Positions 13,631 to 36,227 of a DNA stretch of 64,000 nt are shown here, piece by piece. The DNA comes from Sphingopyxis sp. TUF1 (GTDB lineage Bacteria; Pseudomonadota; Alphaproteobacteria; Sphingomonadales; Sphingomonadaceae), in contig NZ_CP144683.1 of the NCBI RefSeq assembly GCF_036687315.1, forward strand, positions 1,426,001 through 1,490,000, in the 5' to 3' direction. Both the position numbers and the translations under genes were made by a program. Numbering within the stretch: position 1 is the stretch's first letter; every line of letters begins with the position of its first letter. The notes beneath the pieces were generated by a model. The model was not told where the DNA came from, ran no database searches, and saw nothing but the letters and a program-made list of their open reading frames with translations.

Positions 13631-13846
13631 ATGCGTTGTGCTTTGCTTTGCGTAGCGTTGGTGGGCGCAGCTTCCACGCTGAATGCAACAGAAACCATCA
13701 CCTATACTTACGATGCTAAGGGTCGACTGGTGAAAGTGGTTCGGACCGGCACGGTGAACAACAATGTCACCGTCGATTACGAGCATGACAAGGCCGATAA
13801 CCGCACGCGGCTGAAGACAACGAATTCCCCGAACCCACCACCCTGA
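13631..13846 (+). CDS. secreted single-YD-repeat mini-protein
   Basis: A 71-aa product from the ATG at 13631; a GTG at 13613 would add six residues. Residues 1-19 (MRCALLCVALVGAASTLNA) form a signal peptide. The mature part is little more than one YD repeat, YTYDAKGRLVKVV followed by DYEHDKADNRT, ending in an Asn/Pro-rich tail. It lies 55 bases upstream of the two-part Rhs gene. A paralogue with the same core lies at 21559-22162. No function is known to me; possibilities are a detached Rhs shell strand, a leader for the Rhs shell or a regulator. Confidence 0.7.
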   Translation: MRCALLCVALVGAASTLNATETITYTYDAKGRLVKVVRTGTVNNNVTVDYEHDKADNRTRLKTTNSPNPPP

Positions 13847-13901
13847 TCGGCAGACGCGCTGCGCGCCGGAAATTTGGGAACAGCTTTGAAGGGGGATCGA
13901 C

Positions 13902-15764
13902 GTGGGCACATTCGGCATCGGCGCTATGGCTCGGAATATGTGGAACTGGTTGGCCGCACGATTGGTAGGGCTCGCCTCCCTTTGCGCCAGCTTGGTCTTG
14001 ACCATGTCACCTGCGGCATGGGCGCAGGGTGTGCCACCGCAGAAAGACTATTTTGTGGGCGAGGGACAAGTGGATCTGCAACGCGGCACTTTCCTTTACA
14101 GCAACACGGATATCGTAGCCGGCGCGGGGCCTATCACCATTCCATTAACGCGTATTCATAACGTCAGTGGTGGCGGGGCCGGTCCGCTTGGGTCAAACGC
14201 GACGCACAATCTTCAGGTTCAGCTTGTTGTTCAAAAGTTTCAAGAAGAGCCCAACGGCCCAGGGCGGCCGAGCTATCGCTTCCATGTGGTGCGCGGTTCC
14301 AGCGTCGATGTCTTCTATCAGGGCTATGGCAGCTCGACGATGTTCTACGAGGGCGGATCGGGCGGGTATCAAAAGCTGACCATGTCGTCCTGGTTGGGCC
14401 CCTACACCTATACCGGTCCCGATGGCGAGGTCATTCAGTTCGGGACGGCGCTCTTTCCCAACCCCGGATGTTTTGCGACGGGCCTTCCCGGCCCATGGTG
14501 TGCCCTCGCAACCGATATCAGCTACCCCGACGGGACCAAATGGACCTTCGGTTATGACAGTTCCTCGCGTCTGCGGCTGGTAAGCAGCAACCGGGGAATG
14601 GCGCTTGGCTTCAACTTCGCCACCAGCCCCACGATCCGGATCACGCAGGTATGCGCAGTCAATCTGTCACATAGCTATGCATCGGTCACCGCGCCATGCC
14701 CGGGGGGGTCACCCTCCATCCAATATGGATATGCCTGCACCACCAACGCATGCAAGCTGACCGGTTATACTGACGCGGTGGGTCAAACGACGACCTATGG
14801 CTATGGCGGGACCGGCTTCACCGACGGAATTTCTACAATCACTAATCCCGGCGAAGCGTCACCCAATGTTACGATTAATTATTATAGTTCGGCCAAGGTG
14901 CTGTCCCAGGCGTTCGCCAACGGGGCTACCTGGACCTATAGCTACGCCGACGATGGTCAGCCATGGGAAATATCGCCCTCCAATCAGCAAACGGATGTCG
15001 TCGCACCGGATTTAACGAGTGTTCGATACACTTTTATGGGTGCCAGCGGCTCGAAGCCCAGCAAGGTCAGGGATCAGAACAGCCGCGAATGGAATTATGT
15101 TTACACCTGGGCGGGAGGATTGCGCTCGGTCCTGCAGCGCGTGACCGATCCTGAGGGCAATTACACCCACTACACCTATGATAATGCGACACCGCCTGCA
15201 TCCTACGGCTTGATTCCGCAGCCGACCGAAATCCGCAAGGTCGCGAAGCCGGGATCGGGGTTGCCTGATGTTGTGGCGACGGCAACTTACACGTCGCCCT
15301 GCGTTAACTTGAAAGCGTGCGAGAAGCCCCTTACGAAGACCGACGCGAACGGCAATACGACAAGCTACACCTATGATGCGGTGCATGGCGGCGTGCTGAC
15401 GGAAACCGGTCCGGCGGTCGGGGGCGTGGCGCCGCAGAAGCGCTATGAATATGCGCAGCGCTATGCGTGGGTGAAGAATTCAGCGGGCGGTTATGTTCAG
15501 GCTCCGACGCCAGTGTGGGTGCTGACGCGCGAACGTTATTGCAGGGCCACCGCCGCGTCCGGCGCGAGCTGCGCCGGCGGCGCGGCCGACGAGGTCATCA
15601 CCGATTATGACTATGGCCCGAACAGCGGTCCGAACAATCTTCTTGTCCGCGGCGTCGCGGTCACCGCGGACGGCAAGACGCTGCGGACCTGTTACGGCTA
15701 TGACGCGCAAGGTCGCAAGATCAGCGAGACGAAGCCAGCCGCCAATCTGACGTCATGTTCGTAA
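13902..15764 (+). CDS. Rhs shell protein, N-terminal half (separately secreted)
   Basis: The 620-aa product starts with GTG at 13902 behind the site GAAGGGGG. A long N-terminal segment ends in a signal peptide with the cleavage region SPAAWAQG. It continues with an Rhs-type entry region ([18 protein letters not shown], then [11 protein letters not shown]) and several YD repeats such as YTYDAVHGG and [13 protein letters not shown]. It stops at 15764 with no core domain or tip. The next gene, 15 bases on, resumes YD repeats after its own signal peptide. Together (620+866 aa) they equal one ordinary Rhs protein, such as the 1548-aa one at 31581-36227. The two probably assemble into one shell; this is an inference. 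Confidence 0.85.
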
Positions 15765-15778
15765 GGAGGGATCGAGCC

Positions 15779-18379
15779 ATGAAGCAGTGTCTGTCTGCGC
15801 TGACGATCCTCGGAGCCTTGTGTGGGCTGGCTACGGCAGCGCATGCCCAATCCTCGCCATCGCCCTACACCAGCGCCGTGCGCTACGACGCCGCGGGCCG
15901 CACGACCGGCACGATCGCGCCCGATCCCGACGGAGCAGGGCCGCTCAAGTTCGCCGCGACCCGCACGACGTATAACGCCGTTGGCTTGCCGACCAAGATC
16001 GAGACCGGCGAGCTTGCCGGCTGGCAGTCCGAGGCGATCGCGCCGGCAAGCTGGCCGACGGCCACAGCATCGCCCGCGACCGGGTTCACCATTCTCTCGT
16101 CGATCGAGACGAGCTACGATATCGTCTATCGCAAGGTCAGGGTTGTCACCAAGGGCTCGGACGGCGTTGCGACCGGGCTTGTCCAATACAGCTACGACAG
16201 CGTCGGTCGCCTCGAGTGCGTAGCGCAGCGGATGAATCCGGCCGTTTACGGCACCCTGCCGGCGAGCGCCTGCACGCTGGGGACGGAAGGGAGCTTCGGT
16301 CCCGACCGGATCACGAAGAATGTCTATGATGCGGCGGGACAGCTCGCCAAGGTCCAGAAAGCCTATGGCACGCCGCTGCAGGAAGATTATGCGACCTACA
16401 CTTACAGCCTGAATGGCAAGCGGACGAGCCTGACCGACGCGCGCGGCTACACGGCGTCGATGACCTATGACGGTCACGATCGGCAGGTGAAATGGAACTT
16501 CCCGTCGCCGACGACGCCCGGCGTGGTGTCGACAACCGATTATGAGCAATATGGCTATGACGCGAACGGCAACCGCACGAGCCTGAGGAAGCGCGACGGG
16601 AGCGTCATCACCTATCAATATGATGCGCTGAACCGCAATACCGTGAAGATCGTTCCCGAGCGCGCGGGCCTCGCGGCGACGCACACGCGCGACGTCCATT
16701 ATGGCTATGACCTTCGCGGACTTCAGACCTACGCGCGGTTCGACAGCGCGGCGGCGGTATCGGACGGGGTGACGACGGCCTATGACGGCTTTGGGCGCAT
16801 GACCTCGTCAGCGCTCACGATGGATGGGGTCTCCAGGGCGCTCTCCTACTGGTACGACAAAAATGGCAATCGGACGCAACTGAGTTGGCCGGATAACGTC
16901 AAGCACAGCTATAGCTATGACGGGCTCGATCGAATGAGCGTCCTCTTTCATGGCGCGATCGGCTCCACGATTGAAATGGTGACTTACGGCTATAATGATC
17001 GTGGGCTGCGATCGAGCCAAGCGGCTCGCTATGGCCCCCTATCATCCTTCGGCTATGATCCGACCGGGCGCCTCAACGCGCTGACGCACAATGTGACGGG
17101 CGCCGCGCAGGATGTGGCGCTCACCTATGGCTATACGCCCGCGTCGCAGGTCGCGCAGCAGAGCCGCGACAATGATGCCTATGCCTGGACCGGCCACTTC
17201 AACGTTGATCGCAACTACACGGCGAACGGGCTCAACCAATATACCGCGGCGGGCCCGGCGGCGTTCGCTTATGACGCGAACGGCAACCTGACGTCGGACG
17301 GATCGACAACCTATGTCTATGACATCGAGAATCGGTTGGTAAGCGCGAGCGGTGCGACGAATGCGACGCTGCGCTATGATCCGCTGGGCCGTCTGTATGA
17401 GACGGTGGGCGGCGGCGCGTCGACGCGGTTCCTGTATGACGGCGATCAACTGGTCGCGGAATATGATGGCACTGGCAATCTGCTGCGTCGTTATGCGCAT
17501 GGCCAGAATATCGACGATCCGGTTGTGTGGTATGAGGGCAGCGGCACCATGTCGCGCTGGCTCCACACCGATCATCAGGGCAGCGTCATCGCGGTGACCG
17601 ACATGTCCGGCGCTGCGATCGCGATCAACGCCTATGATGAATATGGCATCCCCAAGCCGGGCAACCTCGGGCGGTTCCAGTACACCGGCCAGGCGTGGAT
17701 CCCCGAGCTCGGCATGTACCACTACAAGGCCCGCATCTACTCGCCAACCCTCGGACGGTTCCTCCAGACCGATCCGATCGGATATGAGGATCAGGTCAAC
17801 CTCTATGCTTATGTAAACAATGATCCCGTGAACCGGGTAGACCCCACTGGAATGGAGTCTCCGTGCATTACGGCGGGAGCGGCTTGCGTCGACGCCAACC
17901 TGACATGGAGCGACATCGGCAATCGCGCTCTAACGGCTTTGACAGTAGTAGCGGTGGCTGTCGATATTCTGGACGGGCCGATCCCGGACGTCGGGGCAGC
18001 GGCGGTATCTGCGCGCACTGCACGCGCTGAGCAGATGTCTCAAAATGCAGCAAACGGAGCCCGGAGAGAGAGGGAAGTCGCCGCCGCGCTGCGACGAGAA
18101 AACCCCGGCGCGCGCGTTCAGGGTCAAAGCACGCTAAGAGATAGCAGTGGTCGGATTGTACGTGATCCAAAATCCGGCGAAGCTCGACGCGTCGACCATG
18201 CGGTAATACGAGGCGACAAGGCGAAAACCGTTGAAACAACGAGTCCTACGGCTCCAAAAGCAGGGCAGTTAGCGAAGGAGGAGCGAGTCAGGGATGCCGG
18301 TGGAACACACATTAGAGACCGGGAAACTGGAAAGCTTTGCGAGGTTTCCGGTGTCAGCGAGATCAGAAGGTGTAACTGA
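15779..18379 (+). CDS. Rhs shell C-terminal half with core domain and variable toxin tip 1
   Basis: The 866-aa product starts at the ATG at 15779, behind AAGGAGGG that overlaps the end of the preceding gene. Residues 1-24 ([20 protein letters not shown]) are a Sec signal. About 650 residues of YD repeats follow, closing with the Rhs core signature [20 protein letters not shown] and the pre-tip motif DPTG near residue 690. The tip of about 175 aa has a hydrophobic linker, then [36 protein letters not shown] and [11 protein letters not shown]. The order E, D, E-x-T/S, Q/K resembles a PD-(D/E)XK nuclease-fold toxin, but this is tentative. An immunity-like gene follows two bases later. Confidence 0.88.
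16565..17812 (+). repeat. direct repeat copy A: rhs core
   Basis: This segment recurs at 18755-20002 with a constant offset of 2190 bases. By eye the copies differ only at a few bases in the first 110 positions and again after the FLQT codons near 17766; between these the lines read identically. It encodes the C-terminal YD repeats and core up to the tip boundary. 2190 is divisible by three, so exchange between copies would keep the reading frame. Confidence 0.92.
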
Positions 18380-18381: not shown

Positions 18382-18756
18382 ATGAAAACTAACTACAAGA
18401 TCATCGACATGCCGACTACTCTTTCACGAGATGTCAAGATCCAGAGCTCTAACGATCCAAATAAATGGGTCAAAGACAATGTTTGGTATGAACAAATACG
18501 ACTTATATATAGTAGCTTTGTAGGTTTTCTCAAAAAGAACGATCTTTTAATTAACAATGATATTAAGTACTCTGACGATTTAGTGGTATTTTTCAGCGAT
18601 TTGAATAAAGATGGCAGAGCTCTCATTCAATCGGGCGCAGATGACCGGTGGCTTGATACCTTTGACAAACCGGGAGGAGGGCCACCGCCTTCCGATACAT
18701 CCGCGCTAGAAAGAGCATTGCAGAAAGTCCGAGTGACAAAGGACGACAACGCTTAA
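18382..18756 (+). CDS. probable immunity protein for Rhs tip 1
   Basis: The 124-aa protein starts two bases after the Rhs stop, with ATG at 18382. Its composition is far more AT-rich than the shell (for example ttttaattaacaatgatattaag), a common sign of exchanged toxin/immunity cassettes. It has no signal peptide, consistent with cytoplasmic neutralisation. Content is polar with WVKDNVWYEQIRLIYSSF and a Pro/Gly-rich stretch PGGGPPPSDTS. I recognise no family; the assignment is by position, composition and size. Its final codons abut the start of repeat copy B. Confidence 0.75.
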   Translation: MKTNYKIIDMPTTLSRDVKIQSSNDPNKWVKDNVWYEQIRLIYSSFVGFLKKNDLLINNDIKYSDDLVVFFSDLNKDGRALIQSGADDRWLDTFDKPGGGPPPSDTSALERALQKVRVTKDDNA

Positions 18757-20002
18757 CGGCAATCGCACGAGCCTGAAGAAGCGCGACGGCAGCGTCATCA
18801 CCTATCAATATGATGCGCTGAACCGCAACATAGTGAAGATCGTTCCCGAGCGCAGCGGCCTCGCGGCGACGCACACGCGCGACGTCCATTATGGCTATGA
18901 CCTTCGCGGACTTCAGACCTACGCGCGGTTCGACAGCGCGGCGGCGGTATCGGACGGGGTGACGACGGCCTATGACGGCTTTGGGCGCATGACCTCGTCA
19001 GCGCTCACGATGGATGGGGTCTCCAGGGCGCTCTCCTACTGGTACGACAAAAATGGCAATCGGACGCAACTGAGTTGGCCGGATAACGTCAAGCACAGCT
19101 ATAGCTATGACGGGCTCGATCGAATGAGCGTCCTCTTTCATGGCGCGATCGGCTCCACGATTGAAATGGTGACTTACGGCTATAATGATCGTGGGCTGCG
19201 ATCGAGCCAAGCGGCTCGCTATGGCCCCCTATCATCCTTCGGCTATGATCCGACCGGGCGCCTCAACGCGCTGACGCACAATGTGACGGGCGCCGCGCAG
19301 GATGTGGCGCTCACCTATGGCTATACGCCCGCGTCGCAGGTCGCGCAGCAGAGCCGCGACAATGATGCCTATGCCTGGACCGGCCACTTCAACGTTGATC
19401 GCAACTACACGGCGAACGGGCTCAACCAATATACCGCGGCGGGCCCGGCGGCGTTCGCTTATGACGCGAACGGCAACCTGACGTCGGACGGATCGACAAC
19501 CTATGTCTATGACATCGAGAATCGGTTGGTAAGCGCGAGCGGTGCGACGAATGCGACGCTGCGCTATGATCCGCTGGGCCGTCTGTATGAGACGGTGGGC
19601 GGCGGCGCGTCGACGCGGTTCCTGTATGACGGCGATCAACTGGTCGCGGAATATGATGGCACTGGCAATCTGCTGCGTCGTTATGCGCATGGCCAGAATA
19701 TCGACGATCCGGTTGTGTGGTATGAGGGCAGCGGCACCATGTCGCGCTGGCTCCACACCGATCATCAGGGCAGCGTCATCGCGGTGACCGACATGTCCGG
19801 CGCTGCGATCGCGATCAACGCCTATGATGAATATGGCATCCCCAAGCCGGGCAACCTCGGGCGGTTCCAGTACACCGGCCAGGCGTGGATCCCCGAGCTC
19901 GGCATGTACCACTACAAGGCCCGCATCTACTCGCCAACCCTCGGACGGTTCCTCCAAACCGACCCCATCGGTTATGAAGATCAGGTCAACCTCTATGCCT
20001 AT
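18755..20002 (+). repeat. direct repeat copy B: displaced rhs core
   Basis: Second copy of the rhs core, beginning at the AACGGC that overlaps the immunity stop codon TAA and running to the divergence point just before GTG-GTA-GGT-GAC. Near-identity with copy A over about 1.25 kb indicates recent duplication or ongoing gene conversion. Confidence 0.92.
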
Positions 20003-20608
20003 GTGGTAGGTGACCCTATCAATAATACTGATCCCAACGGCACAGATTGTGGCTCGCTTATACAGGGGGCTGTTGGCGGCAACTGCTCGGGAGGAAGCAT
20101 CCTCGAGATGCTCGGCGGCGGGCGATATGACTGGAGCACCAACCAATTGGATCGGTCAGTCAATGCCGGTAACAGAGGAGACGGAGGGCGATACTCATCT
20201 CCAGCAGCAGGGCAGCCCAAGCCTCCTCAGCAGGTCATTGAGCCTACCAATCCGCCTCAGCTGCCACCAAGGAATCCACCTCCTGGAACGAGTGTGCGTG
20301 TTGGTGCCCCGAGCGAGATTTACCCTAACGGGTATTGGAAGCTGGAGAAGCAGCTGTCCAACGGAAGCAAGCAGCCTTTGGATATATCGACGGGGAAGCC
20401 GCCAGGGAATATGTCCTCAGCAGAGACGCGTGCGCGAACGCATGTGCCTTTGCCAGAAGGTGCATATGACAAGCATTTTCGATTTTCCGAGCAGGTAGCA
20501 ATTGATAGAAATGAAGATGGTGGCTGGCTGTCGTGGGGTAAGCAGATGAGGTCAAGAGTCCTTGGAGCGATTGTTTGCGTCCTCTTTTGCGAGGCCCCTG
20601 CGTACTAA
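18833..20608 (+). CDS. orphan Rhs core plus toxin tip 2 (probably silent cassette)
   Basis: An open frame carries the duplicated rhs core followed by a different tip. It has no signal peptide and no ribosome site; the first usable codon is a GTG at 18833 inside a YD repeat, so it is probably not translated on its own. After YAYVVGDPINNTDPNG the tip (about 190 aa) has a cysteine-containing Gly-rich part, a Pro-rich spacer (PKPPQQVIEPTNPPQLPPRN), then a compact domain with PSEIYPNGYWKLEK, PLDISTGKP and ETRARTHVPLP. The 'GYW ... STGKP ... THVPLP' pattern recalls some small polymorphic-toxin tips but I cannot name a family. Recombination with copy A would fuse this tip to the secreted shell in frame. 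Confidence 0.8.
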   Translation: MKIVPERSGLAATHTRDVHYGYDLRGLQTYARFDSAAAVSDGVTTAYDGFGRMTSSALTMDGVSRALSYWYDKNGNRTQLSWPDNVKHSYSYDGLDRMSVLFHGAIGSTIEMVTYGYNDRGLRSSQAARYGPLSSFGYDPTGRLNALTHNVTGAAQDVALTYGYTPASQVAQQSRDNDAYAWTGHFNVDRNYTANGLNQYTAAGPAAFAYDANGNLTSDGSTTYVYDIENRLVSASGATNATLRYDPLGRLYETVGGGASTRFLYDGDQLVAEYDGTGNLLRRYAHGQNIDDPVVWYEGSGTMSRWLHTDHQGSVIAVTDMSGAAIAINAYDEYGIPKPGNLGRFQYTGQAWIPELGMYHYKARIYSPTLGRFLQTDPIGYEDQVNLYAYVVGDPINNTDPNGTDCGSLIQGAVGGNCSGGSILEMLGGGRYDWSTNQLDRSVNAGNRGDGGRYSSPAAGQPKPPQQVIEPTNPPQLPPRNPPPGTSVRVGAPSEIYPNGYWKLEKQLSNGSKQPLDISTGKPPGNMSSAETRARTHVPLPEGAYDKHFRFSEQVAIDRNEDGGWLSWGKQMRSRVLGAIVCVLFCEAPAY

Positions 20609-20638: not shown

Positions 20639-20977
20639 ATGAAACATATCGAAGAATTTAATTTACAGTCTTTCATTGGGAAAGACATAACTTCTTTCAG
20701 TGTTGAAAAAAACCAGATATCCATATTTTTTGATGGGGGCGCTCACATAACCACTTTCCTTTATGAAGAATTTATAAGTATAAACTCATTCTATGGAGAA
20801 AATTCTATAATAAATATAATTAATAATATAGTTGGAATTAAAATTTATAATATTGCTTTTGAGAAAAACAATATGGTGCTTTTTTTGTCTAATGGATTCA
20901 GGGTCGTATTCGCATGTGATGATCTTCCATTTGAATCTTATATAATATTCGATGGAACAAGAAGGATAGTTGTTTGA
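20639..20977 (+). CDS. probable immunity protein for Rhs tip 2
   Basis: The 112-aa product begins 30 bases after the orphan tip stop. It is strikingly AT-rich (for example aattctataataaatataattaataatatag), rich in Ile, Phe and Asn, and lacks a signal peptide. Patterns such as SFIGKDITSFSVEKNQISIFFDGG suggest a beta-rich small domain. Position directly behind a toxin tip, small size and foreign composition support an immunity role. No family recognised. Confidence 0.7.
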   Translation: MKHIEEFNLQSFIGKDITSFSVEKNQISIFFDGGAHITTFLYEEFISINSFYGENSIINIINNIVGIKIYNIAFEKNNMVLFLSNGFRVVFACDDLPFESYIIFDGTRRIVV

Positions 20978-21084
20978 TCTATAATAAAAGAACAATCTAG
21001 CGCCTGGTCGGCACGGAGGTTCTTGTATAGGGATCGGAGGCAGAAGCTTTAGACTTCTGCGATCGTAAGGGCTGAAACAATTGC

Positions 21085-21120
21085 CCAGGAATTACGGAGA
21101 TAGGTGCAATAACCCCTAAA
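21085..21120. repeat. left inverted repeat flanking the RAYT relic
   Basis: Its reverse complement, TTTAGGGGTTATTGCACCTA then TCTCCGTAATTCCTGG, matches the repeat at 21497-21531 (TTAGGGGTTTATGCACCTGT then CACCGTAATCCCTG) with only a few mismatches. It overlaps the stop of the transposase relic. Confidence 0.75.
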
Positions 21121-21558: not shown

Positions 21559-22162
21559 TCAACACCCCGCGCCATTATAGCAAAACCTAATCAAGATATC
21601 AGCGTCTGTGATTGATGCATTCATCGAGGTGACAGTCCAGCTAATATTCAGGACGAGATTGTCTCCAGGATCGATCGTACTGGCCCACGGCGACACCTGC
21701 ACAGCCCGATAAAGATCGCTTGAATTGCCAGGCAAGAATGGCCCAGTCCCTCCAAATGGCGCATCGTAAATGCTGTACTGGCCGGACCCGGAAACGCGCA
21801 TGATCGTATAGGACAGCGTCACGGGCGCCGCGCACTCATTGTTCCGCATGATATAGGGATAAACCGAGAATTCGTCGGATCCGCCCGTAAAATCCGGTGC
21901 TGCTGTAAAGGTGCATCCGGCGGGCGTGGGGGTTGGTGTCGGGGTCGGATTGGAACTGTTCGTTACCTTGACCCGGGACCGGTTGTCGGCCGGGTCATGT
22001 TCATAATCTGTCGTAACGCCGCTGTTGACGCTGCCCGAGCGCACGACCTTCACGAGGCGACCTTTGGCGTCGTAGGTGTAGCTGATCGTCTCGGAGGCGA
22101 TCGCGGGGCATTGCCACTGCAAGTGCCGGCAGCATCGCAAGAATCAATCGCACATGTTTCAT
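21559..22162 (-). pseudogene. second YD mini-protein with C-terminal domain; signal peptide frameshifted
   Basis: The main frame encodes ETISYTYDAKGRLVKVVRSG and DYEHDPADNRSRVKV, nearly the same YD unit as the mini-gene at 13631. A (PT)n linker and about 115 residues follow, with AAPDFTGGSDEFSVYPYIM and DPGDNLVLNISWTV, a beta-sandwich-like extracellular domain. The natural start, ATG at 22162, encodes a good signal peptide (MKHVRLILAMLPALAVA), but it is one base out of frame with the YD part. The only start in the main frame is a TTG at 22140. So it is either frameshifted or carries a sequence error or a slippage site. It lies 222 bases from the end of virB11, an AT-rich gap with no gene. Confidence 0.6.
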
Positions 22163-27150: not shown

Positions 27151-27152
27151 GA

Positions 27153-29522
27153 TCAGGCCCGCTCCAAGAGCTTGTCGTACCATCCCTCGGGTGCGTCGCC
27201 ATGTTCGGCGCGCAGTTCGTCGAGGATGCGAACGGTGCGCTCGCGCCCCGACAGGATCGTCAGCAGTTCATGCTCGCCGGAGAGGTTGAGGCGCGCGACG
27301 ACGCTTTCATGGCCGTGCTTGACGAGGAAGCAGTGCGCGCTGTCGGGGAGCGAGCGCACCAGCTCATATTCATGGGGGGTGAGCCCGAAGCCCTCAACAT
27401 AATCTTCGCGGCGCGCCTTGGGGTTCGCCATGAAGATCTGCGTCGCCGCCTGCTCGATGATCGCGCTCGCAATCCGGCTTTCCAATGCATCTTGCGCACT
27501 CTGCGTCGCGAAGCCGACGATGCCGTTCCTTTTGCGGATCGTCTTTTCCCAATCCTTGATCCGGCGCACGAACACATCGTCGTCGAGCGCCTTCCAGCCT
27601 TCGTCGACGACGATGATCGCCGGACTCCCGTCGAGCCGCTCCTCGACTCGGTGAAACAGATACATCATCGCCGGGGTGCGCACCGCCGGATCATCGAGGA
27701 TTTGCGTCATGTCGAAACCGACCGAACGCGCCGACAAATCGGTCGCATCGACTTCATTGTCGAAGAGCCACGCACGCTCGCCGTCGCCCCACCAGGGCCT
27801 GAGGCGCGACCAGAGGTCGTCGGCGCGCGGGCGATGCCCGCCGCGGAACAACTCGACGATATGGCGAAGGCGGCGGTGGTGCGGCGGCTGCGCATAATTG
27901 GCATCGACCGCATCCTTGATCTCGGCAAGCTCCTCGACGCTCGCGCCGCCGGCAAGCAGCGCGAGCCAATCGATCAGGAACTGGCGGTTCGTGGCATTAT
28001 CTTCGAGCTGGAGCGGGTTGAGTCCCGACGGTGCGCCGGGGCGCAGCACGTCATAACGACCCCCGATCGCCCGGATGAAGAGTTCGCCGCCGCGATCCTT
28101 GTCGAAAAAGACGATGCGCGGATCGAACCGCCGCGCCTGCGCGAGCAGGAAGTTGAGCGCCACCGTCTTGCCAGACCCCGACGGGCCGATGATCGTGAAA
28201 TTGCCGAGGTCGCGTGCATGGAAGTTGAAGAAGTACGGCCCAGCTGCGGTCGTTTCGAACAGGGTGACGGCATCGCCCCAATGGTTGCCCGACGCTTGCC
28301 CGATCGCAAAATTATGCCCGCTTGCAAGCCCCGCAAAATTGCCTGTCGAGACAAGGCCGCGCCGCGCAATATATTTGAAGTTGCCTGGAAACTGCGCCCA
28401 GAAGGCAGGTTCGAGCGCAATATCCTCACGCACCGCGATGATCCCGAGATCGGCGAGCGTCGCCTGCACCTCGGCGACCCCGGCATCGACCTCGGCGGGC
28501 GAGGCGCCGCGAACCGCAATCGTCATATGATGTTCGCCAAACCCCGACCGCCCCGCCGCAACCTCGTCCTTGGCGTTCGACAGGTCGGCACGCAGGCTCA
28601 GCGCCTCGTCCTCCGCCGAGCGCATTCGCCGCAGCGTCAGGTTCATGCGCTCGAGCGCCGCCTGACGCTCGACGAAGCCAAAGGATTGCGCGACGGTAAG
28701 CTCGAAGGGCAGGCGCAGCAGTTCGTCGAACATCCCGGGACTCGTCTGCCCCGGATAATCCTTAATCGATACGAGGCCGACAAAACCGCTCCCGGCCTCG
28801 CCCGCAGGGCCGAGCTCGACCGTCTCCTGCCCGAAACTTATGCGCCGATCGGGCAAATAGGCGCCGATGTCCTGCGTCGGCAGCAGGACCGGCCGATTCT
28901 CGCCGTTGTAGAGCGTCGAGAAGAATTCAAGCAGCTCGGAACAGGCGCCCGCCTTGCCTTCATACACGCCGAGCAGCGCCGGTTCATAGCTGCCGAGCGC
29001 CGCCATCAGCGTCTCGCGCGCAGTATCGAGCTGACGCAGCTCGTGCGTAATGGTTTCACTCGCGCTGCGTGCGCCGCCGAGCCGTTCACGCACGGCATCG
29101 AGCAGGCCGATACGGCCCTGCAACGGGCGGCGCACAAGCGTGAGATAAAGATCGTTGACGAAGAGCTGGCGCCGTCCGAGCCGCGCCTGCCATACCACAT
29201 CAAGCTTCGCCGAAAAGCGATCGGTGAAGCCGCCGTCGAGCCGGGCCTCGACACGGCGGCGGACGATGTGATGATGGAGCGCAAAGCGCGACGAGCCGAT
29301 CGACTGGAGCATCGCGTCGCGCAGCCGCTTGCGATAGTTGATCTCCTCGGTGTCCGCGGTCTCGAAGAGCAGGCCGCGCAAGGCGATGACCTGCATCAAG
29401 AGCCCGTCGCGCGTCGCGACCGTATGATCGTCGACATGGTGACTGAACGGCAGGTGGCGTCCAGCAGGCGCCTCCCTTGCAACGATTTTCGGAGAGGATG
29501 CTAGGGCCGGTAGGAGTTGCAT
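27153..29522 (-). CDS. virB4: VirB4-like secretion ATPase
   Basis: I use the ATG at 29522 (MQLLPALASSPKIVAREA), which overlaps the end of virB3, giving 789 aa. The N-terminal CagE/VirB4 domain shows ADTEEINYRKRLRDAMLQS and GFVERQAALERMNLTLRRM. The C-terminal ATPase has Walker A GPSGSGKT near residue 445, FFDKDRGGELFIRAIGG, Walker B AIIVVDEGWKALDD and GFATQSAQDAL. This energises pilus biogenesis and substrate transfer. Length is normal. Confidence 0.96.
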   Translation of the reverse strand: MQLLPALASSPKIVAREAPAGRHLPFSHHVDDHTVATRDGLLMQVIALRGLLFETADTEEINYRKRLRDAMLQSIGSSRFALHHHIVRRRVEARLDGGFTDRFSAKLDVVWQARLGRRQLFVNDLYLTLVRRPLQGRIGLLDAVRERLGGARSASETITHELRQLDTARETLMAALGSYEPALLGVYEGKAGACSELLEFFSTLYNGENRPVLLPTQDIGAYLPDRRISFGQETVELGPAGEAGSGFVGLVSIKDYPGQTSPGMFDELLRLPFELTVAQSFGFVERQAALERMNLTLRRMRSAEDEALSLRADLSNAKDEVAAGRSGFGEHHMTIAVRGASPAEVDAGVAEVQATLADLGIIAVREDIALEPAFWAQFPGNFKYIARRGLVSTGNFAGLASGHNFAIGQASGNHWGDAVTLFETTAAGPYFFNFHARDLGNFTIIGPSGSGKTVALNFLLAQARRFDPRIVFFDKDRGGELFIRAIGGRYDVLRPGAPSGLNPLQLEDNATNRQFLIDWLALLAGGASVEELAEIKDAVDANYAQPPHHRRLRHIVELFRGGHRPRADDLWSRLRPWWGDGERAWLFDNEVDATDLSARSVGFDMTQILDDPAVRTPAMMYLFHRVEERLDGSPAIIVVDEGWKALDDDVFVRRIKDWEKTIRKRNGIVGFATQSAQDALESRIASAIIEQAATQIFMANPKARREDYVEGFGLTPHEYELVRSLPDSAHCFLVKHGHESVVARLNLSGEHELLTILSGRERTVRILDELRAEHGDAPEGWYDKLLERA

Positions 29523-29785
29523 CGCCAGATCGCAAAATTGCGCACGCGCGGGCAACGACCGACCCGGGCGAGCCACAGATCAAAGAAGCGCGGCTCCTTG
29601 AGGCACAGGAGCACGCCCGCAAGATGGACGACCAGCGCAATGACCAGCGCCCAGACGGTCTTGAAGATCAGGAACAGCTCGGTCGCGAGCACGGCATTGG
29701 CGACGAAATAGCTGTAGGTGACGCCCGCGAACATCTGCGGCCGCGTCAGCGCCACGAACATCACGTCGCGCTCAACCCCATTCAC
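29501..29785 (-). CDS. virB3: VirB3-like membrane protein
   Basis: The 94-aa protein has the family pattern VFVALTRPQMFAGVTYSYF (here MFVALTRPQMF) and two adjacent hydrophobic segments around residues 25-62. The C-terminal DLWLARVGRCPRVRN fits VirB3 (HDxRxFRLLxLWLRTK in relatives). Its last 22 bases overlap virB4. VirB3 works with VirB4 at the inner membrane. Confidence 0.88.
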   Translation of the reverse strand: MNGVERDVMFVALTRPQMFAGVTYSYFVANAVLATELFLIFKTVWALVIALVVHLAGVLLCLKEPRFFDLWLARVGRCPRVRNFAIWRCNSYRP

Positions 29786-29788
29786 GCC

Positions 29789-30109
29789 TCAGCGCCCCAA
29801 GCTGGCGGTCGATTGGATGCCCGCGACGATGCTCGCGGCACCGAAGAGAATGAAGCAGCCGAGAATGACCGTCGCGCCATAGCGCCAGTTGATCCGGCCT
29901 GTGAGCATCATGAAGCCGACCGTGGCAACGGCGATCACCGCGACGACGGTTGCGATCGTGCCGAGTAACGTCCCCTCAAGCCAGCGCACCGCCGAGACGA
30001 GCACACCCGAGCCCGCGGGGTCCGCGATATCCTGCGCCTGCGCACCGGCCGCGTGAAACAAAGTCGTCAGCGCAGCGGCAACTGCGGTGATTCTTACTTT
30101 CAGTTCCAC
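29789..30109 (-). CDS. virB2: VirB2-like pilin
   Basis: I prefer the GTG at 30109 because GGGGGGAT lies five bases upstream; a GTG at 30127 would add six residues. The 106-aa precursor has a long signal peptide ending AAGAQAQD, then ADPAGSGVLVSAVRWLEGTL and two hydrophobic helices (GTIATVVAVIAVATVGFMML and GATVILGCFILFGAASIVAG) separated by the short loop TGRINWRY, the standard VirB2/TrbC fold. It is the first gene of the leftward operon. Confidence 0.92.
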   Translation of the reverse strand: MELKVRITAVAAALTTLFHAAGAQAQDIADPAGSGVLVSAVRWLEGTLLGTIATVVAVIAVATVGFMMLTGRINWRYGATVILGCFILFGAASIVAGIQSTASLGR

Positions 30110-30286
30110 GAAATCCCCCCGCGTCACGGCAAAGTTGCGTTGATACCAAATAGCAGGCTAGCGTCGGCTCGATCGATCTGCCAGCCGGAAATCAAAGGCT
30201 TGCACGGTAATTGATGCCATTATGGCAGTGTTTCTGGTTGCATCGCCGAGCGCGAACCGTTTGCGATAAATTCCATCGGAGGGTTC

Positions 30287-30658
30287 ATGTATTCATTTCG
30301 CCCAACGCTTAGCGATCCGCCCGCCGGAAGTCCCCTTGCCGAAGGCGTGGCGTGGGTCGAAGGCGCCGCGCTCGGCAGCACCGCGACCGTCGTCGCGGTC
30401 ATAGCGGTCGCGGCGATCGGGCTGCTCATGCTGTCCGGAAGGCTCGATCTTCGGCGCGGCATAACTGTGGTGCTGGGATGCTTCATCCTGTTCGGGGCCG
30501 GCGGGATCGCCGCGGGCCTCACCGGCCTGGCGGGCGCTGATCCGCGGCCACCGGCGACGGCGGAGCCCAGCCCGTCGCCAAGCCAATTACGACCGACTAT
30601 GCCGCGCCCTTCCGTCTACGACCCCTATGCAGGCGCCTCCGTGCCCGTGAGTCGCTAG
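30287..30658 (+). CDS. second VirB2-like pilin, divergent and without a classical signal peptide
   Basis: The 123-aa product shares the core of the neighbouring VirB2 closely: VEGAALGSTATVVAVIAVAA versus LEGTLLGTIATVVAVIAVAT, the loop SGRLDLRRG versus TGRINWRYG, and VVLGCFILFGAGGIAAG versus VILGCFILFGAASIVAG. It differs in two ways: the N-terminus is short and polar (MYSFRPTLSDPPAGSPLAEG), with no pilin signal sequence, and a 45-residue Pro/Ser-rich tail has been added (PRPPATAEPSPSPSQ). It is transcribed away from the virB operon across 178 bases. It may be a minor pilin, a tip or capping variant, or a diverging duplicate. Confidence 0.75.
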   Translation: MYSFRPTLSDPPAGSPLAEGVAWVEGAALGSTATVVAVIAVAAIGLLMLSGRLDLRRGITVVLGCFILFGAGGIAAGLTGLAGADPRPPATAEPSPSPSQLRPTMPRPSVYDPYAGASVPVSR

Positions 30659-30673: not shown

Positions 30674-31283
30674 AGGTGGTCGTCAGCCCGATGCGCTCGT
30701 CGAATCCGTTGTACAGCATTGCCTGCGTCTCGGCCCGCGCGCGCGCATAGCTCGCCAGCCGCGCATGGCCGTCATAGTCTAGCGTCACCCCTGCACCCGC
30801 CGGGCGCGTGTCGGCGATCAGGTTGCCGCGCGCGTCGTGCGTGAAGCTGCGCGTCCCCGCGGTATGCGCGCGACCGAGGTCAGCCGGTTCGTCCCGCTGG
30901 CGACGGCGTGGACGTCGCTCTGCGACGGGCTGGCGTCGCCGGCGTTCACCCGCCGCTCGACGCCGAGCAGATTGCCATTCTTGTCGTGGACATAATCCTC
31001 GCGCGCAAAGCCGCCCGTACCGCCATCCACCCGGTTCAACCGGTCGACGCTGTCATACCCAAAGCTGCGGCTGTTCGCCGGGGTCACATGGTCGGTGATC
31101 GATGTGATATTGTCGTCACCGTCATAACCGTAACTGACATGCCAGACGTCGTCGCCCGCCGCGGTGAACAGCCGCTTCGAGGCCAGTCGTCGGTCGCTCC
31201 CCCAATCCTGCTCCAGCTTCAACCCATTGCCGAAATCCGCCGACAGCATCGGGCCAAAGGGTTCATAGGCGATGTTGGTCGCG
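30674..31283 (-). pseudogene. broken rhs core fragment
   Basis: This stretch duplicates the part of the large rhs gene lying at about 32420-33021, with clear but imperfect identity. It encodes MLSADFGNGLKLEQDWGSDR through the YD repeats to YNGFDERIGLTT. Relative to the intact copy there is a two-base insertion (CGGTATGCGCGCGACC against CGGCATGCACGACC near 30868), which breaks the frame. There is no core signature, no tip and no signal peptide. It is a displaced cassette whose tip has been lost up to the neighbouring pilin gene. Confidence 0.85.
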
Positions 31284-31350: not shown

Positions 31351-31581
31351 TTAGCTCCTGTATACAATAATGTCTGGGCCAGAGTAGGATGCATCCAAGA
31401 GATAGTCCACAAAATGCTCATGATCCCAAATTTCGGTCGTTGACGCTTCTTTCGCGCATTTGTTCAGAAAATCTGCCAATTTTTTCATTTCGGTTGGATC
31501 GAGATAGAGCGTCGCTTCCGTCAATCGCCCTACTCCGCCGCGGGGATCGACCCGGTTATCGGGAGTACCAAAAAGTTCCAT
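31351..31581 (-). CDS. probable immunity protein for Rhs tip 3
   Basis: I place the start at the ATG at 31581, which shares one base with the Rhs stop (TGATG) and has GGAG six bases upstream; the frame is also open to a GTG at 31611. The 76-aa product (MELFGTPDNRVDPRGGVG) contains ATLYLDPTEMKKLADFLNKC and ends GPDIIVYRS. No signal peptide. The tight coupling to the toxin gene and small size support immunity. It recalls small cytosolic immunity proteins of the 'LYLT.EE...L...L' type, but I cannot name a family. Confidence 0.75.
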   Translation of the reverse strand: MELFGTPDNRVDPRGGVGRLTEATLYLDPTEMKKLADFLNKCAKEASTTEIWDHEHFVDYLLDASYSGPDIIVYRS

Positions 31582-34500
31582 CAATCGCTCCATGCTTCGG
31601 ATAATGGCCACAACGCATCGTTAGCGGCTGTCTCTGCTGCGTGTGCAATACCATCATTGTACCAATTCCACGCGAATGTACCAATAATCAATGGCTTACA
31701 TAGTTTGAAGCCCTTCTTAGCCAAATAGGGTATAAGCTTTTTGCGTGCGCTGTTAGGAACGCCATCCAAGCCCTGCTTGTGGCTTGGTGTTCCATCTAGC
31801 TTCACAGCGCCAACCGGCCTGCCCTTAGGATCATAAATGTGCGCGTGCGGCTGTCCTCTCCCAGAGGTAGGCTGGTCGATTCTAACGCGATATTTGGTGC
31901 CGGGCACCTGTTTGGTTCCATTTGGGCCCGGTGTTTCAAGTCCATAGGGATCGATATTTACCATGGGATTGCCGAGCGCATAGACATAAGGATTCGTATC
32001 TCCTCCCAGCCCGATGGGATCGGCCTGCACATAGCGTCCCAATGTCGGGTCATAATCGCGGTAATAGTTATAATAGAGATCGGCATGCTGCTCGACCTGG
32101 CCCGGGAACCCGATGCGGGCGTGGCCGGTGGGGGTGACCGCGGCGCCGCTGGCGTCAGTCGTCATCACCGGGGTGCCGAGGTGGTTGCCTTGCACCCAGA
32201 GGATCTTGCTCGTGCCGCCGTCGGGCACCGCGACCGCCAGCGGCATATAGCCGCCCAGCCCATCGTCGCCGCCGAACGCCGTCCCATCACCGACCTCGGG
32301 CAGCAGCCAGATATATTCGGCGCGAAGGTCGGCGGTGGTCGCGCCATATTCGCCTATGATGCGGTGGCCCGCGTCATAGACAAAGCGCCGCTCCTCGACC
32401 GCGCTGCCGCCGAGCAGCGTGGTCAGACCGACGCGCTCGTCGAACCCGTTGTACAGCATCGCCTGCGTCTCGGCGCCAGCGCGCGCATAGCTCGACAGTC
32501 GCGCGTGGCCGTCATAGCCGAGCGTCACCCCCGCGCCCGCCGGGCGCGTGTCGGCGATCAGGTTGCCGCGCGCGTCGTGCGTGAAACTGCGCGTCCCCGC
32601 GGCATGCACGACCGAGGTCAGTCGGTTCGTCCCGCTGGCGATCGCATGGACGTCGCTCTGCGCCGGGCTGGCGTCGCCGGCGTTCACCCGCCGCTCGACG
32701 CCGAGCAGATTGCCATTCTTGTCGTGGACATAATCCTCGCGCGCAAAGCCGCCCGTACCGCCATCCACCCGGTTCAACCGGTCGACGCTGTCATACCCAA
32801 AGCTGCGGCTGTTCGCCGGGGTCACATGGTCGGTGATCGATGTGATATTGTCGTCACCGTCATAACCGTAACTGACATGCCAGACGTCGTCGCCCGCCGC
32901 GGTGAACAGCCGCTTCGAGGCCAGTCGTCGGTCGCTTCCCCAATCCTGCTCCAGCTTCAACCCATTGCCGAAATCCGCCGACAGCATCGGGCCAAAGGGT
33001 TCATAGGCGATGTCAGTCGCGAGCACGGTCCAGTTTGCGCCCGCATTCGCGCGCGTTTTTACCTCAATTACGCGCCCCTTGGCATCGCGCGCGTAGGCAA
33101 TTTCGCGCCCACTGGGATATGTCATCTGCACAATGCGATCGGCAAGGTCATAGCTCCAGCCGAGCGTCCCGGTCGGCTCCACCTTGGCGGTCAGATTGCC
33201 TCGATGGTCGTATCCGAAACTGGTCGTCCCACTGCTATCGGTCATGCTCGCCAGGCGACCGACGCAGGCGCAGCCCGGGACGCCGCCGTCGTCATAGCTA
33301 TAGGTGATAACCTCCGAAGATGGTCGTGCGACGGGGGTTTTGGCGGTAACGCGGCCCAAAATATCGCGCGTATAGTCGATCCGCTGACCCCGACCGTCGA
33401 TCGTCGCAGTCAAATCGCCCGCGGCATCATAATAATGGATGCTGGTGCCGCGATCGGGGCTCACCTCCTGTACCACCTCGCCGAAGCCATTCCGGACAAA
33501 TGTGGTTTGCACCGATACGGCATCGGTAAAGCCGGTGATCGCGTCGATCGCATTATATTGGGTCGCAGTCGTCCCGGTGTCGGGGGCGACCGTGGACGCC
33601 AGGCGGTTCAGAGGGTCGAAGGCCATATCGGTCGCATGGCTGCGCGGCGAGGTTGTCCGGACCGGATTGCCATTCTTGTCATAGACCCAGGTCGTCGTGC
33701 GGCCAGGGCCGAGCGTTTCGGTGAGCATGCGTCCGATGCTGTCGAAAGTCCGCACAATCGTGCTGCGCGCGACTCCATCCGCGCGCTCGATCTTCTGCTC
33801 AGTCACATTGCCCATCGCATCGTGCGCGAACGTCTGTTTCTCGCCATCGGCCGAGGCGATCTCCAGCAACTGCCCCGCGAGATCATAGACAAAGCTGAGC
33901 TTTTCGGTCGCTGGCGTGGTAATTCCGGTGACGCGGCCTTCGATGTCATATTCATAGCTGGTCGTCGCATCGAGCGAAGCGGTTGTCGGATGTTTGACCG
34001 TACTGGTGAGTAAGCGGCCCAAAGTGTCGTAAGTAAAGAGCGTTTCGACATTATTGGCATCTGTCATTGAGGCCGGCCGCCCATTGGCATCATGGCCAGC
34101 GAATGTCGTGACATGGCCTAGGCCATTGGTAACGGTTAGCAGATTGCCTGCGCCATCATAAGCAAAGCTGATGATATCGTCCTGCGAGCCAATCGGAGCC
34201 CGCGGACCGTTTATCGATTGCAGCCGCCCGCCCGCGCCCCAGATGTATGTTTCGGTGCGGGCCTGCCCTGCCGACGAATAGGGCACGCTGTGCGTCGTCG
34301 TGTCGGTCAGGGTGCGCGTCAGCAATTCGCCCGTCGCGCCATAGGTCATCTCGGTGCGAAGACCCGGAACATCGATGCGCGTGGGAAGGTCACGCACCGG
34401 TTCCCACTGAATATTCGTGGTGCGAGCCGCACTGGTCCCTGCCGCTTCTGTTATTTTCGTTGGACGAAGCCCCGCATGATCATTTGTAAGACTTGTCATG

Positions 34501-36227
34501 TGACCGCGCCGGTCCGTCACCGAATTCGCGATACGGACGAATAGCGAGCCGTTTGCAAGTTCGTGCCCCCATGCCTGAAGATCAGCAGGGACCGAGGGTG
34601 CTTGTAGGCCATCGATGCTTACCAGCACTGAGGGCATGTTGGGCGGCGCTGATTGGGCGTATCGACGATAGAACTTATAGTTCTCCTGTCGCCCCAGTGC
34701 ATTGGTTACCGCTCGATAGGTAGTCTTCCAGCTCCCGCTCACGACATGCGTGTAGTCGACCTCAACCTTCCCCACCCCACCGGCTCGCTCCGAGCTCTTG
34801 ACAAGACCATAGTCGTGATAGGTATATGTCGAGAGGCGCTGCCCGTTCTGATCCAGAATACCGGTTAATGCATAGGGATAAGCACTATCTTCATAGAGAT
34901 ACTCGCGCGCCCAGAGCTCTGTTCCAGAAGCGCTCTGCCGACTGACCCTGCTCAAGCGATCCTCTCGACCTACGCGATTCAGTGATGAAGTATCGCTATA
35001 TGTATAGATTAGTTTGGTTGTATCCGGCAGCACAATTTGTGATATGACCATCACATTTTGTATCGTTCCATATTCTACGACGCTAGTACCACCACCTGGT
35101 ATAAGAGCAGAGCTTTTTGATTTTGCTTCAGCCCATGTGATCTGCATTTCTCGTCCGAAACTGTCCCTGACTTTGCTCGGATACTGGCCGCTGTCTTCAT
35201 AATCGAAGAACAATGTATAGCCGCCCGGAAAAACCTTTTCAGTGGGCACTAGATAACGAAGCCCGTCCTGCCATTCTTCAGCACGTCGGTAAAGCGTATA
35301 GGTGCCGCTTGATTCCGTGAGCTTAAACTCACCCGGTCCATTGGAAATGGCCGCTCCAGTTTTAAAATAGTCATCCCGGATTATTCCTGGATTGGCCACA
35401 GCTTCGAATTTTCTTCGACTCATTCCCGATCCGGAGTAATATACATATCCCATCCGGTTCGTACGATCTTCGGCGCCGAGATAATCATACCCTCCACTCT
35501 CGGTAAGAATTTCGACCGTCTCATAATAGTGTCCGTATACAGCAAGCCTGCCGGGTATGACGCCGTGCCAATTTGCGCCAAATCCTGGAATCGGGGTGAT
35601 TGCCTGTCGACGGTTCTGATGTTGCAAGCTTCGGTAAGATCGCTCGACCCTGAACATCCCGTCGGCCGTTTCGAAATCCACTTCGCGATCGATCTTCGAA
35701 CCTGTCGCGAGCGAAATCGGATTCCCGACGAGAGGCGTAGGCCCGCCGCTTACCGCGCGCGTCTCCTCGGTACAGTCGCACTCTGGCTCACTATCGTGAA
35801 CTAGAGAACATTCTCCGGTACGAAGAAGAGAGTATCCTGAAGGACAATATAAAGATATGATAGTTGGCAAAACCGTACTTGAATCCGGGGGTCCACCGTG
35901 TTGACGGGATTTCCACTTGCAGCCGTAGGTATTATAGTCTCGGTAAACAGGCGCTTCATAGGTCGCATTGGGATTGTAAATCTCATGCTGCTTTCGACAT
36001 GCCGCATCGGGGGTCGGAAAGCTGTCAGAACTTCCTAATGTTTTCCAAAAGGAACGAGGCGCGGCGGTGGGCGTCTCTCCCGGAAGCTCGCTTTGAGCGT
36101 AGGCAGGCATCGCAATCAGCAGCGGGCACGCGATCAAAGTCCCGGATTTGTTTCGTACATAACTGAGGATGGCCCAGAGCGAAGCCCAAAGAATTCTACC
36201 AGCACTACCGGTTGCCCGTTTAAGCAC
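31581..36227 (-). CDS. full-length secreted Rhs/YD-repeat toxin with tip 3
   Basis: The 1548-aa protein starts with GTG at 36227, with GGAG eight bases upstream. The first 45 residues have two hydrophobic stretches and a cleavage site MPAYAQ-SE. A cysteine-containing N-terminal region (ECDCTEETRAV) leads to GNPISLATGSKIDREVDFE, the Rhs shell entry, then dozens of YD repeats. The core signature is GRYVQADPIGLGGDTNPYVY and the pre-tip motif DPYG is near residue 1428. The tip of about 120 aa has YRVRIDQPTSGRGQPHAHIY, VGAVKLDGTPSHKQG and a C-terminal hydrophobic helix. The conserved-looking His residues (HAH, PSHK) suggest a nuclease but this is unproven. It is unsplit, unlike the locus at 13902-18379. 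Confidence 0.88.
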   Translation of the reverse strand: MLKRATGSAGRILWASLWAILSYVRNKSGTLIACPLLIAMPAYAQSELPGETPTAAPRSFWKTLGSSDSFPTPDAACRKQHEIYNPNATYEAPVYRDYNTYGCKWKSRQHGGPPDSSTVLPTIISLYCPSGYSLLRTGECSLVHDSEPECDCTEETRAVSGGPTPLVGNPISLATGSKIDREVDFETADGMFRVERSYRSLQHQNRRQAITPIPGFGANWHGVIPGRLAVYGHYYETVEILTESGGYDYLGAEDRTNRMGYVYYSGSGMSRRKFEAVANPGIIRDDYFKTGAAISNGPGEFKLTESSGTYTLYRRAEEWQDGLRYLVPTEKVFPGGYTLFFDYEDSGQYPSKVRDSFGREMQITWAEAKSKSSALIPGGGTSVVEYGTIQNVMVISQIVLPDTTKLIYTYSDTSSLNRVGREDRLSRVSRQSASGTELWAREYLYEDSAYPYALTGILDQNGQRLSTYTYHDYGLVKSSERAGGVGKVEVDYTHVVSGSWKTTYRAVTNALGRQENYKFYRRYAQSAPPNMPSVLVSIDGLQAPSVPADLQAWGHELANGSLFVRIANSVTDRRGHMTSLTNDHAGLRPTKITEAAGTSAARTTNIQWEPVRDLPTRIDVPGLRTEMTYGATGELLTRTLTDTTTHSVPYSSAGQARTETYIWGAGGRLQSINGPRAPIGSQDDIISFAYDGAGNLLTVTNGLGHVTTFAGHDANGRPASMTDANNVETLFTYDTLGRLLTSTVKHPTTASLDATTSYEYDIEGRVTGITTPATEKLSFVYDLAGQLLEIASADGEKQTFAHDAMGNVTEQKIERADGVARSTIVRTFDSIGRMLTETLGPGRTTTWVYDKNGNPVRTTSPRSHATDMAFDPLNRLASTVAPDTGTTATQYNAIDAITGFTDAVSVQTTFVRNGFGEVVQEVSPDRGTSIHYYDAAGDLTATIDGRGQRIDYTRDILGRVTAKTPVARPSSEVITYSYDDGGVPGCACVGRLASMTDSSGTTSFGYDHRGNLTAKVEPTGTLGWSYDLADRIVQMTYPSGREIAYARDAKGRVIEVKTRANAGANWTVLATDIAYEPFGPMLSADFGNGLKLEQDWGSDRRLASKRLFTAAGDDVWHVSYGYDGDDNITSITDHVTPANSRSFGYDSVDRLNRVDGGTGGFAREDYVHDKNGNLLGVERRVNAGDASPAQSDVHAIASGTNRLTSVVHAAGTRSFTHDARGNLIADTRPAGAGVTLGYDGHARLSSYARAGAETQAMLYNGFDERVGLTTLLGGSAVEERRFVYDAGHRIIGEYGATTADLRAEYIWLLPEVGDGTAFGGDDGLGGYMPLAVAVPDGGTSKILWVQGNHLGTPVMTTDASGAAVTPTGHARIGFPGQVEQHADLYYNYYRDYDPTLGRYVQADPIGLGGDTNPYVYALGNPMVNIDPYGLETPGPNGTKQVPGTKYRVRIDQPTSGRGQPHAHIYDPKGRPVGAVKLDGTPSHKQGLDGVPNSARKKLIPYLAKKGFKLCKPLIIGTFAWNWYNDGIAHAAETAANDALWPLSEAWSD

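Follow-up and report, generated by a model that had tools for sequence, protein, structure and literature searches.

How Rhs polymorphic toxins that carry Sec signal peptides get out of a cell with two membranes is the question raised by a locus of Sphingopyxis sp. TUF1; we know of no clear account of the passage of such proteins through the outer membrane in diderm bacteria. The locus, a compact type IV secretion system (T4SS) operon of the VirB type between Rhs genes, lies in a window of 64,000 nucleotides (NZ_CP144683.1, forward-strand positions 1,426,001 to 1,490,000; coordinates below are window positions). An initial annotation had proposed that this T4SS, lacking the coupling protein VirD4, exports the neighbouring toxins from the periplasm. 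In this study, the operon, its Rhs neighbours and a second pilin-like gene, virB2b, were compared with related genomes. What is new here is a VirD4-less VirB T4SS with a cargo-linked pilin. Judging from the sequences, it seems rather probable that in many sphingomonads such a T4SS is used with Sec-exported Rhs toxins, and that VirB2b docks the Rhs protein, which would then be displayed or pushed out.

The VirB operon and its missing components

An intact eight-gene operon, virB2-3-4-6-8-9-10-11, was confirmed by Pfam and NCBIfam matches on the minus strand at 22385-30127. Several adjoining vir genes overlap by 4 bases, in agreement with the tight gene order read initially, and the long overlap of virB10 with virB9 is probably a matter of start-codon choice. 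With VirB4, VirB6/8/9/10 and a pilin encoded in a single operon, the system is a VirB-type (P-type) T4SS. The ratio of nonsynonymous to synonymous substitution rates (dN/dS) is 0.08-0.21 across nine vir genes when compared with the sole congeneric genome sampled (G042; identifiers with G are ours for genomes, those with L for loci or stretches), and these genes are therefore under purifying selection. The two end positions given initially were verified: at 13631 a secreted YD-repeat protein of 71 aa starts, and at 36227 the gene for a 1548-aa Rhs protein.

The host genome is complete, a single contig of 3.47 Mb, and a genome-wide search for VirD4 (PF02534) yielded no match, so that a hidden VirD4 elsewhere was rejected. 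VirB5 (PF07996) was likewise without a match, as was the relaxase family PF03432, the only relaxase family searched for. The list of missing parts given by the initial annotation (virB1, virB5, virB7, virD4 and a relaxase) thus holds genome-wide for virD4, virB5 and the PF03432 relaxase, and the paired virD4 and relaxase that it had named as evidence against itself were not found. VirB1 and VirB7 were not recognised among the scanned open reading frames (ORFs) of the island, where some small ORFs were unscanned, and neither family was searched genome-wide.

The absence of VirD4 extends to relatives. VirB4 matches in 119 genomes of the family were grouped by identity into clades A (61-100%), B (52-56%) and C (39-47%) and distant Trb types, VirB4 fragments being omitted; the window belongs with clade A. 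VirD4 at 100 bits or more is absent from 14/21 clade A genomes and present in 7/21, and it lies within 20 kb of a clade A VirB4 in one genome only (G038, near a Trb-type system). VirB5 occurs in 11 of the 119 genomes, two of them with clade A (G075 and G112), where the matches are separated from the clade A T4SS by some 36 kb or lie on different contigs. Among the best 80 of the 141 T4SS relatives found, a tblastn search with two query ORFs detected VirD4 in the flanks (up to 10 kb, some shorter) of L127 alone. The operon could stem from a conjugation system in decay, with VirD4 and relaxase lost, as its VirB homology and two related plasmid-borne copies might suggest. However, a lack of VirD4 in 79/80 loci is a rule of the clade, the vir genes of the window have uninterrupted reading frames subject to purifying selection, and the S. 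aerolata plasmid has been typed as non-mobilizable. We consider such decay very unlikely.

Linkage of the clade A T4SS to Rhs genes

Rhs cores were scored by TIGR03696 and counted as linked within 20 kb of VirB4. Linkage was found for 13/21 clade A loci but for 0/46 clade B and 0/14 clade C loci, where random placement expects 0.38 clade A loci with a core. Fisher's test of A against B gives 8e-9, a value that overstates the case since the loci are related; a tree-based test is weaker. Two of the Rhs-less clade A loci are poor tests, one being a 9-kb contig (G065) and the other having a broken virB4 (G067). At the genome level, Rhs is present in 15/21 clade A genomes versus 16/98 others (31 genomes above the family cut-off, with two weaker ones omitted). 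The association with Rhs genes is hence far above chance, and the exporter interpretation of the initial annotation is partly supported: linkage and VirD4 absence were borne out, but exclusivity was not, given the Rhs genes in genomes without clade A.

The same linkage could arise if T4SS operons and Rhs toxins merely gathered in shared mobile islands and were functionally unconnected. Some T4SS copies are indeed on plasmids, displaced Rhs fragments and remnants lie within the islands, and Rhs genes stand on either side in either direction. Shared neighbourhood does not account well, though, for the lack of Rhs at the loci of sister clade B and plasmid clade C, nor for the behaviour of virB2b described below.

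Clade B is in its own right a widespread second chromosomal VirB system (46 loci), with VirD4 within 20 kb in 1/46 and a Rhs core in none; in G012, G014 and G036 it is preceded upstream by what we take to be a lytic-transglycosylase-like gene. An unusually rich toxin array was seen in G098 (L042, L043), where one clade A VirB4 has ten Rhs cores in its surroundings, at distances of up to about 21 kb.

A second pilin-like protein, VirB2b

A tie between machine and toxins that is more specific than the proximity of operon and Rhs, and the strongest evidence, is virB2b. This second TrbC/VirB2-like gene, overlooked by the initial annotation, is divergent from virB2a across a 159-base gap. By inspection rather than by a signal-peptide program, VirB2b has no cleavable signal peptide and starts approximately where mature VirB2a does. 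In an alignment, VirB2b proteins retain the pilin core and, unlike VirB2a, have no signal peptide; they have about 40 extra residues ending in DPYAGA. This motif is found in 50 VirB2b ORFs, where its median distance from the end is 11 residues, and no other ORF at the T4SS loci contains it. A structure model of VirB2b comprises three helices and an extended tail (mean predicted local distance difference test score 77, predicted template modelling score 0.38), and its nearest Protein Data Bank match is the Agrobacterium T-pilus (8exh, probability 0.98, E 0.19). An arginine-rich loop between the helices suggests that both ends of VirB2b face the periplasm.

Full-length virB2b was found in 18/21 clade A genomes versus 2/98 others; of these two, one has a completeness of just 66%. 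In a class-wide sample with few sphingomonads, a search at E 1e-20 found it at full length in 1/385 genomes, that of the window itself. A database search with the VirB2b alignment returned at least 5044 proteins devoid of context and was not used for counts.

The co-variation of virB2b with Rhs was scored over 100 loci that remained after 4 duplicates were dropped, with flanks that reached up to 20 kb for the G loci and, for most L loci, some 6-7 kb past the operon. With virB2b scored by its tail motif, 36 loci had both, 10 virB2b only, 3 Rhs only and 40 neither (3 clade B outgroups included), while 11 with short flanks were undecided (p 2.8e-12). On the VirB4 tree, 16 changes are counted for each label. 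In 10 independent pairs taken from well-supported branches, Rhs follows virB2b in 6.7 on average, shows no difference in 3.3 and is opposed to it in none (sign test, median p 0.016, range 0.004-0.125). In the named set, eight genomes have no Rhs near their virB2b locus, and 7/8 of them carry 4-12 Rhs cores elsewhere.

virB2b-Rhs modules away from the T4SS

In 39 genomes (of 48) whose T4SS locus mostly lacks virB2b, full-length copies of the gene were sought anywhere. A Rhs core lies within 15 kb of 23/37 copies, against 0.9 expected. For five of the 37, a VirB2a-like gene at up to 12 kb makes a position at a T4SS probable; among the 32 others, 19 copies, in 10 genomes, still have a Rhs core within 15 kb. 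Counted per genome, 22 of the 39 carry virB2b and Rhs, 2 virB2b only, 4 Rhs only and 11 neither.

Twenty stretches around distant virB2b copies were inspected, and 18 are without virB3, 4, 6, 8, 9, 10 or 11; the exceptions hold a virB11 piece (L188) and a whole T4SS (L190). In 7/20 stretches (L172-L174, L178, L181, L182, L185) virB2b stands back to back, across a gap of 64-291 bases, with a gene for a small YD-repeat protein (mini-YD), which is followed by Rhs. L175 and L176 show a similar order with overlapping ORFs, virB2b is split into two ORFs in L172 and L174, and it stands alone in L177 and L191. A like module is found in Sphingorhabdus soli (G044, L156), on a contig other than that of its T4SS. 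As a separate observation, a genome bin labelled Verrucomicrobiaceae (L151, L188) has the same T4SS, 11 Rhs cores and virB2b near Rhs, by misbinned contigs or by transfer.

This repeated layout away from the T4SS, and the tracking of Rhs by virB2b within clade A on the VirB4 tree, argue against a shared neighbourhood, as hitchhiking does not predict that one pilin gene, with its tail conserved, accompanies the toxins; we therefore judge co-residence without function to be unlikely. VgrG and PAAR proteins accompany orphan effectors of the type VI secretion system (T6SS). By analogy, VirB2b may be a cargo-encoded adaptor. In a broader proposal, for which we see an even balance of reasons, Rhs modules bring their own pilin adaptor (VirB2b with DPYAGA), which would plug them into a shared VirD4-less T4SS encoded elsewhere, a modular T4SS counterpart to these orphan modules, and so give Rhs a T4SS route.

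Rhs, mini-YD and immunity genes of the window

The features of the island are collected in Table 1. Rhs genes with Sec-like N-termini, as assessed by eye and by a crude test, are found on both flanks of the operon, as had been claimed initially. The Rhs proteins of the window have the layout of Rhs polymorphic toxins, i.e. RHS repeats and an Rhs-associated core followed by a variable C-terminus, and relatives of mini-YD were found beside Rhs at related loci.

Table 1. Features of the T4SS-Rhs island (window positions)
Feature	Position	Strand	Match or remark
mini-YD, 71 aa, signal peptide and one YD repeat; first gene of the split Rhs operon	13631..13846	+	YD_repeat_2x E 7.4e-4
Rhs N-terminal half: signal peptide, DUF6531, RHS repeats	13902..15764	+	
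Rhs C-terminal half: own signal peptide, Rhs core, variable C-terminal domain	15755..18379	+	
candidate immunity gene, by position	18382..18756	+	no Pfam/NCBIfam match
orphan Rhs core with different C-terminus, displaced toxin module, no signal peptide	18833..20608	+	
candidate immunity gene, by position	20639..20977	+	no family match
decayed virB2b tail remnant	21000..21107	-	tblastn E 2.2e-4; 0/50 shuffles as good
second mini-YD protein, with C-terminal extension	21559..22140	-	
virB11, ATPase	22385..23377	-	TIGR02788 1.9e-107
virB10	23374..24651	-	TrbI 1.6e-42
virB9	24465..25166	-	CagX 1.5e-47
virB8	25163..25936	-	VirB8 3.1e-53
virB6	25933..27183	-	TrbL 1.1e-25
virB4, ATPase	27153..29576	-	TIGR00929 1.8e-227; solved relative TrwK/VirB4 7o41
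virB3	29501..29785	-	VirB3 4.1e-24
virB2a, ordinary pilin with signal peptide	29789..30127	-	TrbC 1.3e-15; signal peptide by eye
virB2b, second pilin-like protein, proline-rich tail ending in DPYAGA	30287..30658	+	TrbC (PF04956) E 1.1e-10
orphan Rhs fragment	30818..31249	-	RHS_repeat 0.0042 (below cut-off); tblastn to Rhs
Imm32-like immunity candidate	31351..31611	-	Imm32 E 4.8e-4, 20.4 bits vs cut-off 27
full-length Rhs, 1548 aa: signal peptide, DUF6531, RHS repeats, Rhs core, variable C-terminus	31581..36227	-	

The immunity-like genes that had been read at both flanks are less secure, comprising one sub-threshold Imm32 match and two candidates by position alone. The Rhs C-terminus at 31581-31955 gave no Pfam match to a toxin domain; an Ntox37/Imm32 pairing listed in PMC3482391 provides a lead only.

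In the wider set, the crude signal-peptide test was positive for 51/62 T4SS-linked and 20/24 virB2b-linked Rhs ORFs, for 7/8 unlinked ones in clade A genomes and for 5/9 from non-clade-A genomes, under a rule that both misses and over-calls, with many failures being fragments and a few genes counted twice (G042/L074, G074/L104). Because most Rhs ORFs pass the test, the Rhs cargo is periplasmic by sequence.

A separate pair of mini-YD and Rhs (1433 aa) lies about 1 Mb away in the same genome (L152:7028-11605). The C-terminal 71 residues of this mini-YD are the same as the window copy at 13631-13846, and no virB2b was found within the 20-kb stretch. Another mini-YD (L088:14003-14671) has an Ig- or cadherin-like domain after its YD repeat, whereas other mini-YDs stop right after the repeat.

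At the island's outskirts, copper-resistance genes (CopB, multicopper oxidase, CopC) and a sigma-70-family factor adjoin it at 37197-42078. An ORF at 12429-13208 by a tRNA-Glu pair had no Pfam match and is perhaps a mobile-element remnant; a minus-strand reading of 12300-13210 presumably resembles the N-terminus of plasmid ParB. An island edge at the tRNA-Glu pair was rejected, as the tRNA 3' end has no second copy elsewhere in the window.

Rhs without the T4SS and the T4SS without Rhs

Several observations weigh against a dedicated partnership of this T4SS with Rhs. Among the 16 Rhs-bearing family genomes without a clade A T4SS, only one has virB2b. Stretches were obtained from 12/16 of them, and four also show mini-YD (L163, L164, L167, L171). 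Their Rhs proteins form no separate branch but are scattered among the T4SS-linked ones. Thus, the T4SS is not the sole Rhs route, unless it was lost in these genomes. Within the T4SS-bearing set, L113, L136 and L146 have Rhs but no motif-bearing virB2b, and two genomes without a Rhs core keep a VirB2b-like protein, lacking DPYAGA in G015 and with an altered motif in G016. Of the virB2b copies away from the T4SS, 13/32 have no Rhs core within 15 kb. Among the 39 genomes searched for both, G120 and G132 carry virB2b but no Rhs core at all, and 11/39 have the T4SS with neither. Moreover, the Rhs shell is large relative to the known width of T4SS channels. Finally, 34 T4SS loci without virB2b or Rhs have other neighbours, named from one member each: tail-collar (7/34), sulfotransferase-like (5/34), Asp/Asn hydroxylase (5/34) and NosD-like (12/34) genes (examples L125:3211-5182 and L125:13565-14179). 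These, the phage tail-collar genes among them, are possibly other cargo, and their presence at such loci indicates that the machine probably has another basic role.

On a quickly built Rhs tree, in which many forks are weak, T4SS-linked Rhs as a lineage of their own were rejected (24 changes versus a shuffle mean of 25.0, 193/500 as low). The virB2b-linked Rhs are somewhat clustered (12 changes versus 15.7, 3/500), in a set that has several copies per genome. The T6SS was also rejected as the Rhs route, being present in 10/119 genomes, in 1/31 Rhs genomes and not in the host.

The T4SS might instead form a contact pilus or adhesin like that of Bartonella Trw, with VirB2b tuning adhesion to prey and Rhs leaving by another route and profiting from the contact. 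The two VirB2-type pilins, the lack of VirD4 and VirB5 in the host genome, the Rhs of genomes without clade A and the Trw precedent (PMC12857230) would suit such a role. On the other hand, the T6SS, the sole other route searched for, is nearly absent, and a pilin encoded with Rhs modules far from the T4SS resembles a partner of cargo more than an adhesin of general use. An adhesin role is therefore held to be improbable.

Proposed mechanism

For the use of the T4SS with Rhs toxins, the following route is proposed. The Rhs protein, or its two separately exported halves, and mini-YD would reach the periplasm by Sec, as their signal peptides indicate. VirB2b, with no signal peptide, would enter the inner membrane with its arginine-rich loop in the cytoplasm, according to the positive-inside rule, and its DPYAGA tail in the periplasm. 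It could then be incorporated in the VirB2a pilus or its tip, where the tail may serve as the dock for the Rhs shell. VirB4 and VirB11 would power pilus assembly through the VirB6-8-9-10 channel, and Rhs might be displayed or pushed past the outer membrane for contact killing, with the immunity genes protecting kin.

The association of T4SS, Rhs and pilin in sphingomonads suggests a new exit route for toxins. In a 2025 review (PMC12857230), the recruitment of periplasmic pertussis toxin to a VirD4-less T4SS is called an intriguing open question. With a cargo-linked pilin whose short tail is conserved, this question could be tested on one gene and one motif, in environmental bacteria.

Comparison with known systems

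A standard survey of polymorphic toxins describes T4SSs as apparently not used by such toxins. The words Rhs and Sphingo are absent from the main text of PMC12857230, and no paper linking Rhs to a VirD4-less T4SS was found among the papers listed in the literature searched, a scope that leaves outside most subscription journals and all bioRxiv preprints. Rhs toxins of the T6SS, type VII secretion system, Tc and Sec routes share with those described here the RHS repeats, the core, the variable C-terminus, displaced modules and immunity-like genes. The Xanthomonas/Stenotrophomonas X-T4SS is likewise a VirB machine proposed for bacterial killing, but requires a VirD4 that recognises effectors (PMC6759196), whereas here there is no VirD4 and the cargo has signal peptides.

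As VirD4-less T4SSs, PMC12857230 names Ptl, Brucella VirB, ComB and Bartonella Trw, and it is the source of the features of Trw and ComB given here. ComB of H. pylori shares the lack of VirD4 and VirB5, and one could imagine that Rhs kills neighbours whose DNA the T4SS then imports. ComB, which imports DNA, has no VirB11, however, in contrast to the host operon and the clade A loci that are not cut short, and DNA uptake leaves virB2b beside distant Rhs modules unexplained, which makes this idea highly improbable. Bartonella Trw also consists of VirB homologues without VirD4 and has more than one VirB2-type pilin, but in the form of several VirB2 and VirB5 copies; the present system lacks VirB5, is linked to toxins and has a single distinctive VirB2b whose tail motif is fixed.

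Bordetella Ptl shares the lack of VirD4 and VirB5, and its cargo has signal peptides and is thought to use Sec in a two-step route (PMC8402538 and PMC12857230). At the locus studied here, too, predicted cargo, known from its genes, has Sec signal peptides and is encoded beside the operon. Ptl differs in having a VirB7 homologue (PMC12857230), none being recognised among the ORFs scanned here, and the present system differs in its second, cargo-linked pilin, its putative polymorphic Rhs cargo and the many Rhs at some related loci. By analogy, the use of a VirD4-less VirB machine with Sec-exported Rhs fits the Ptl-like logic, by which cargo would pass by Sec to the periplasm and then through the VirB machine.

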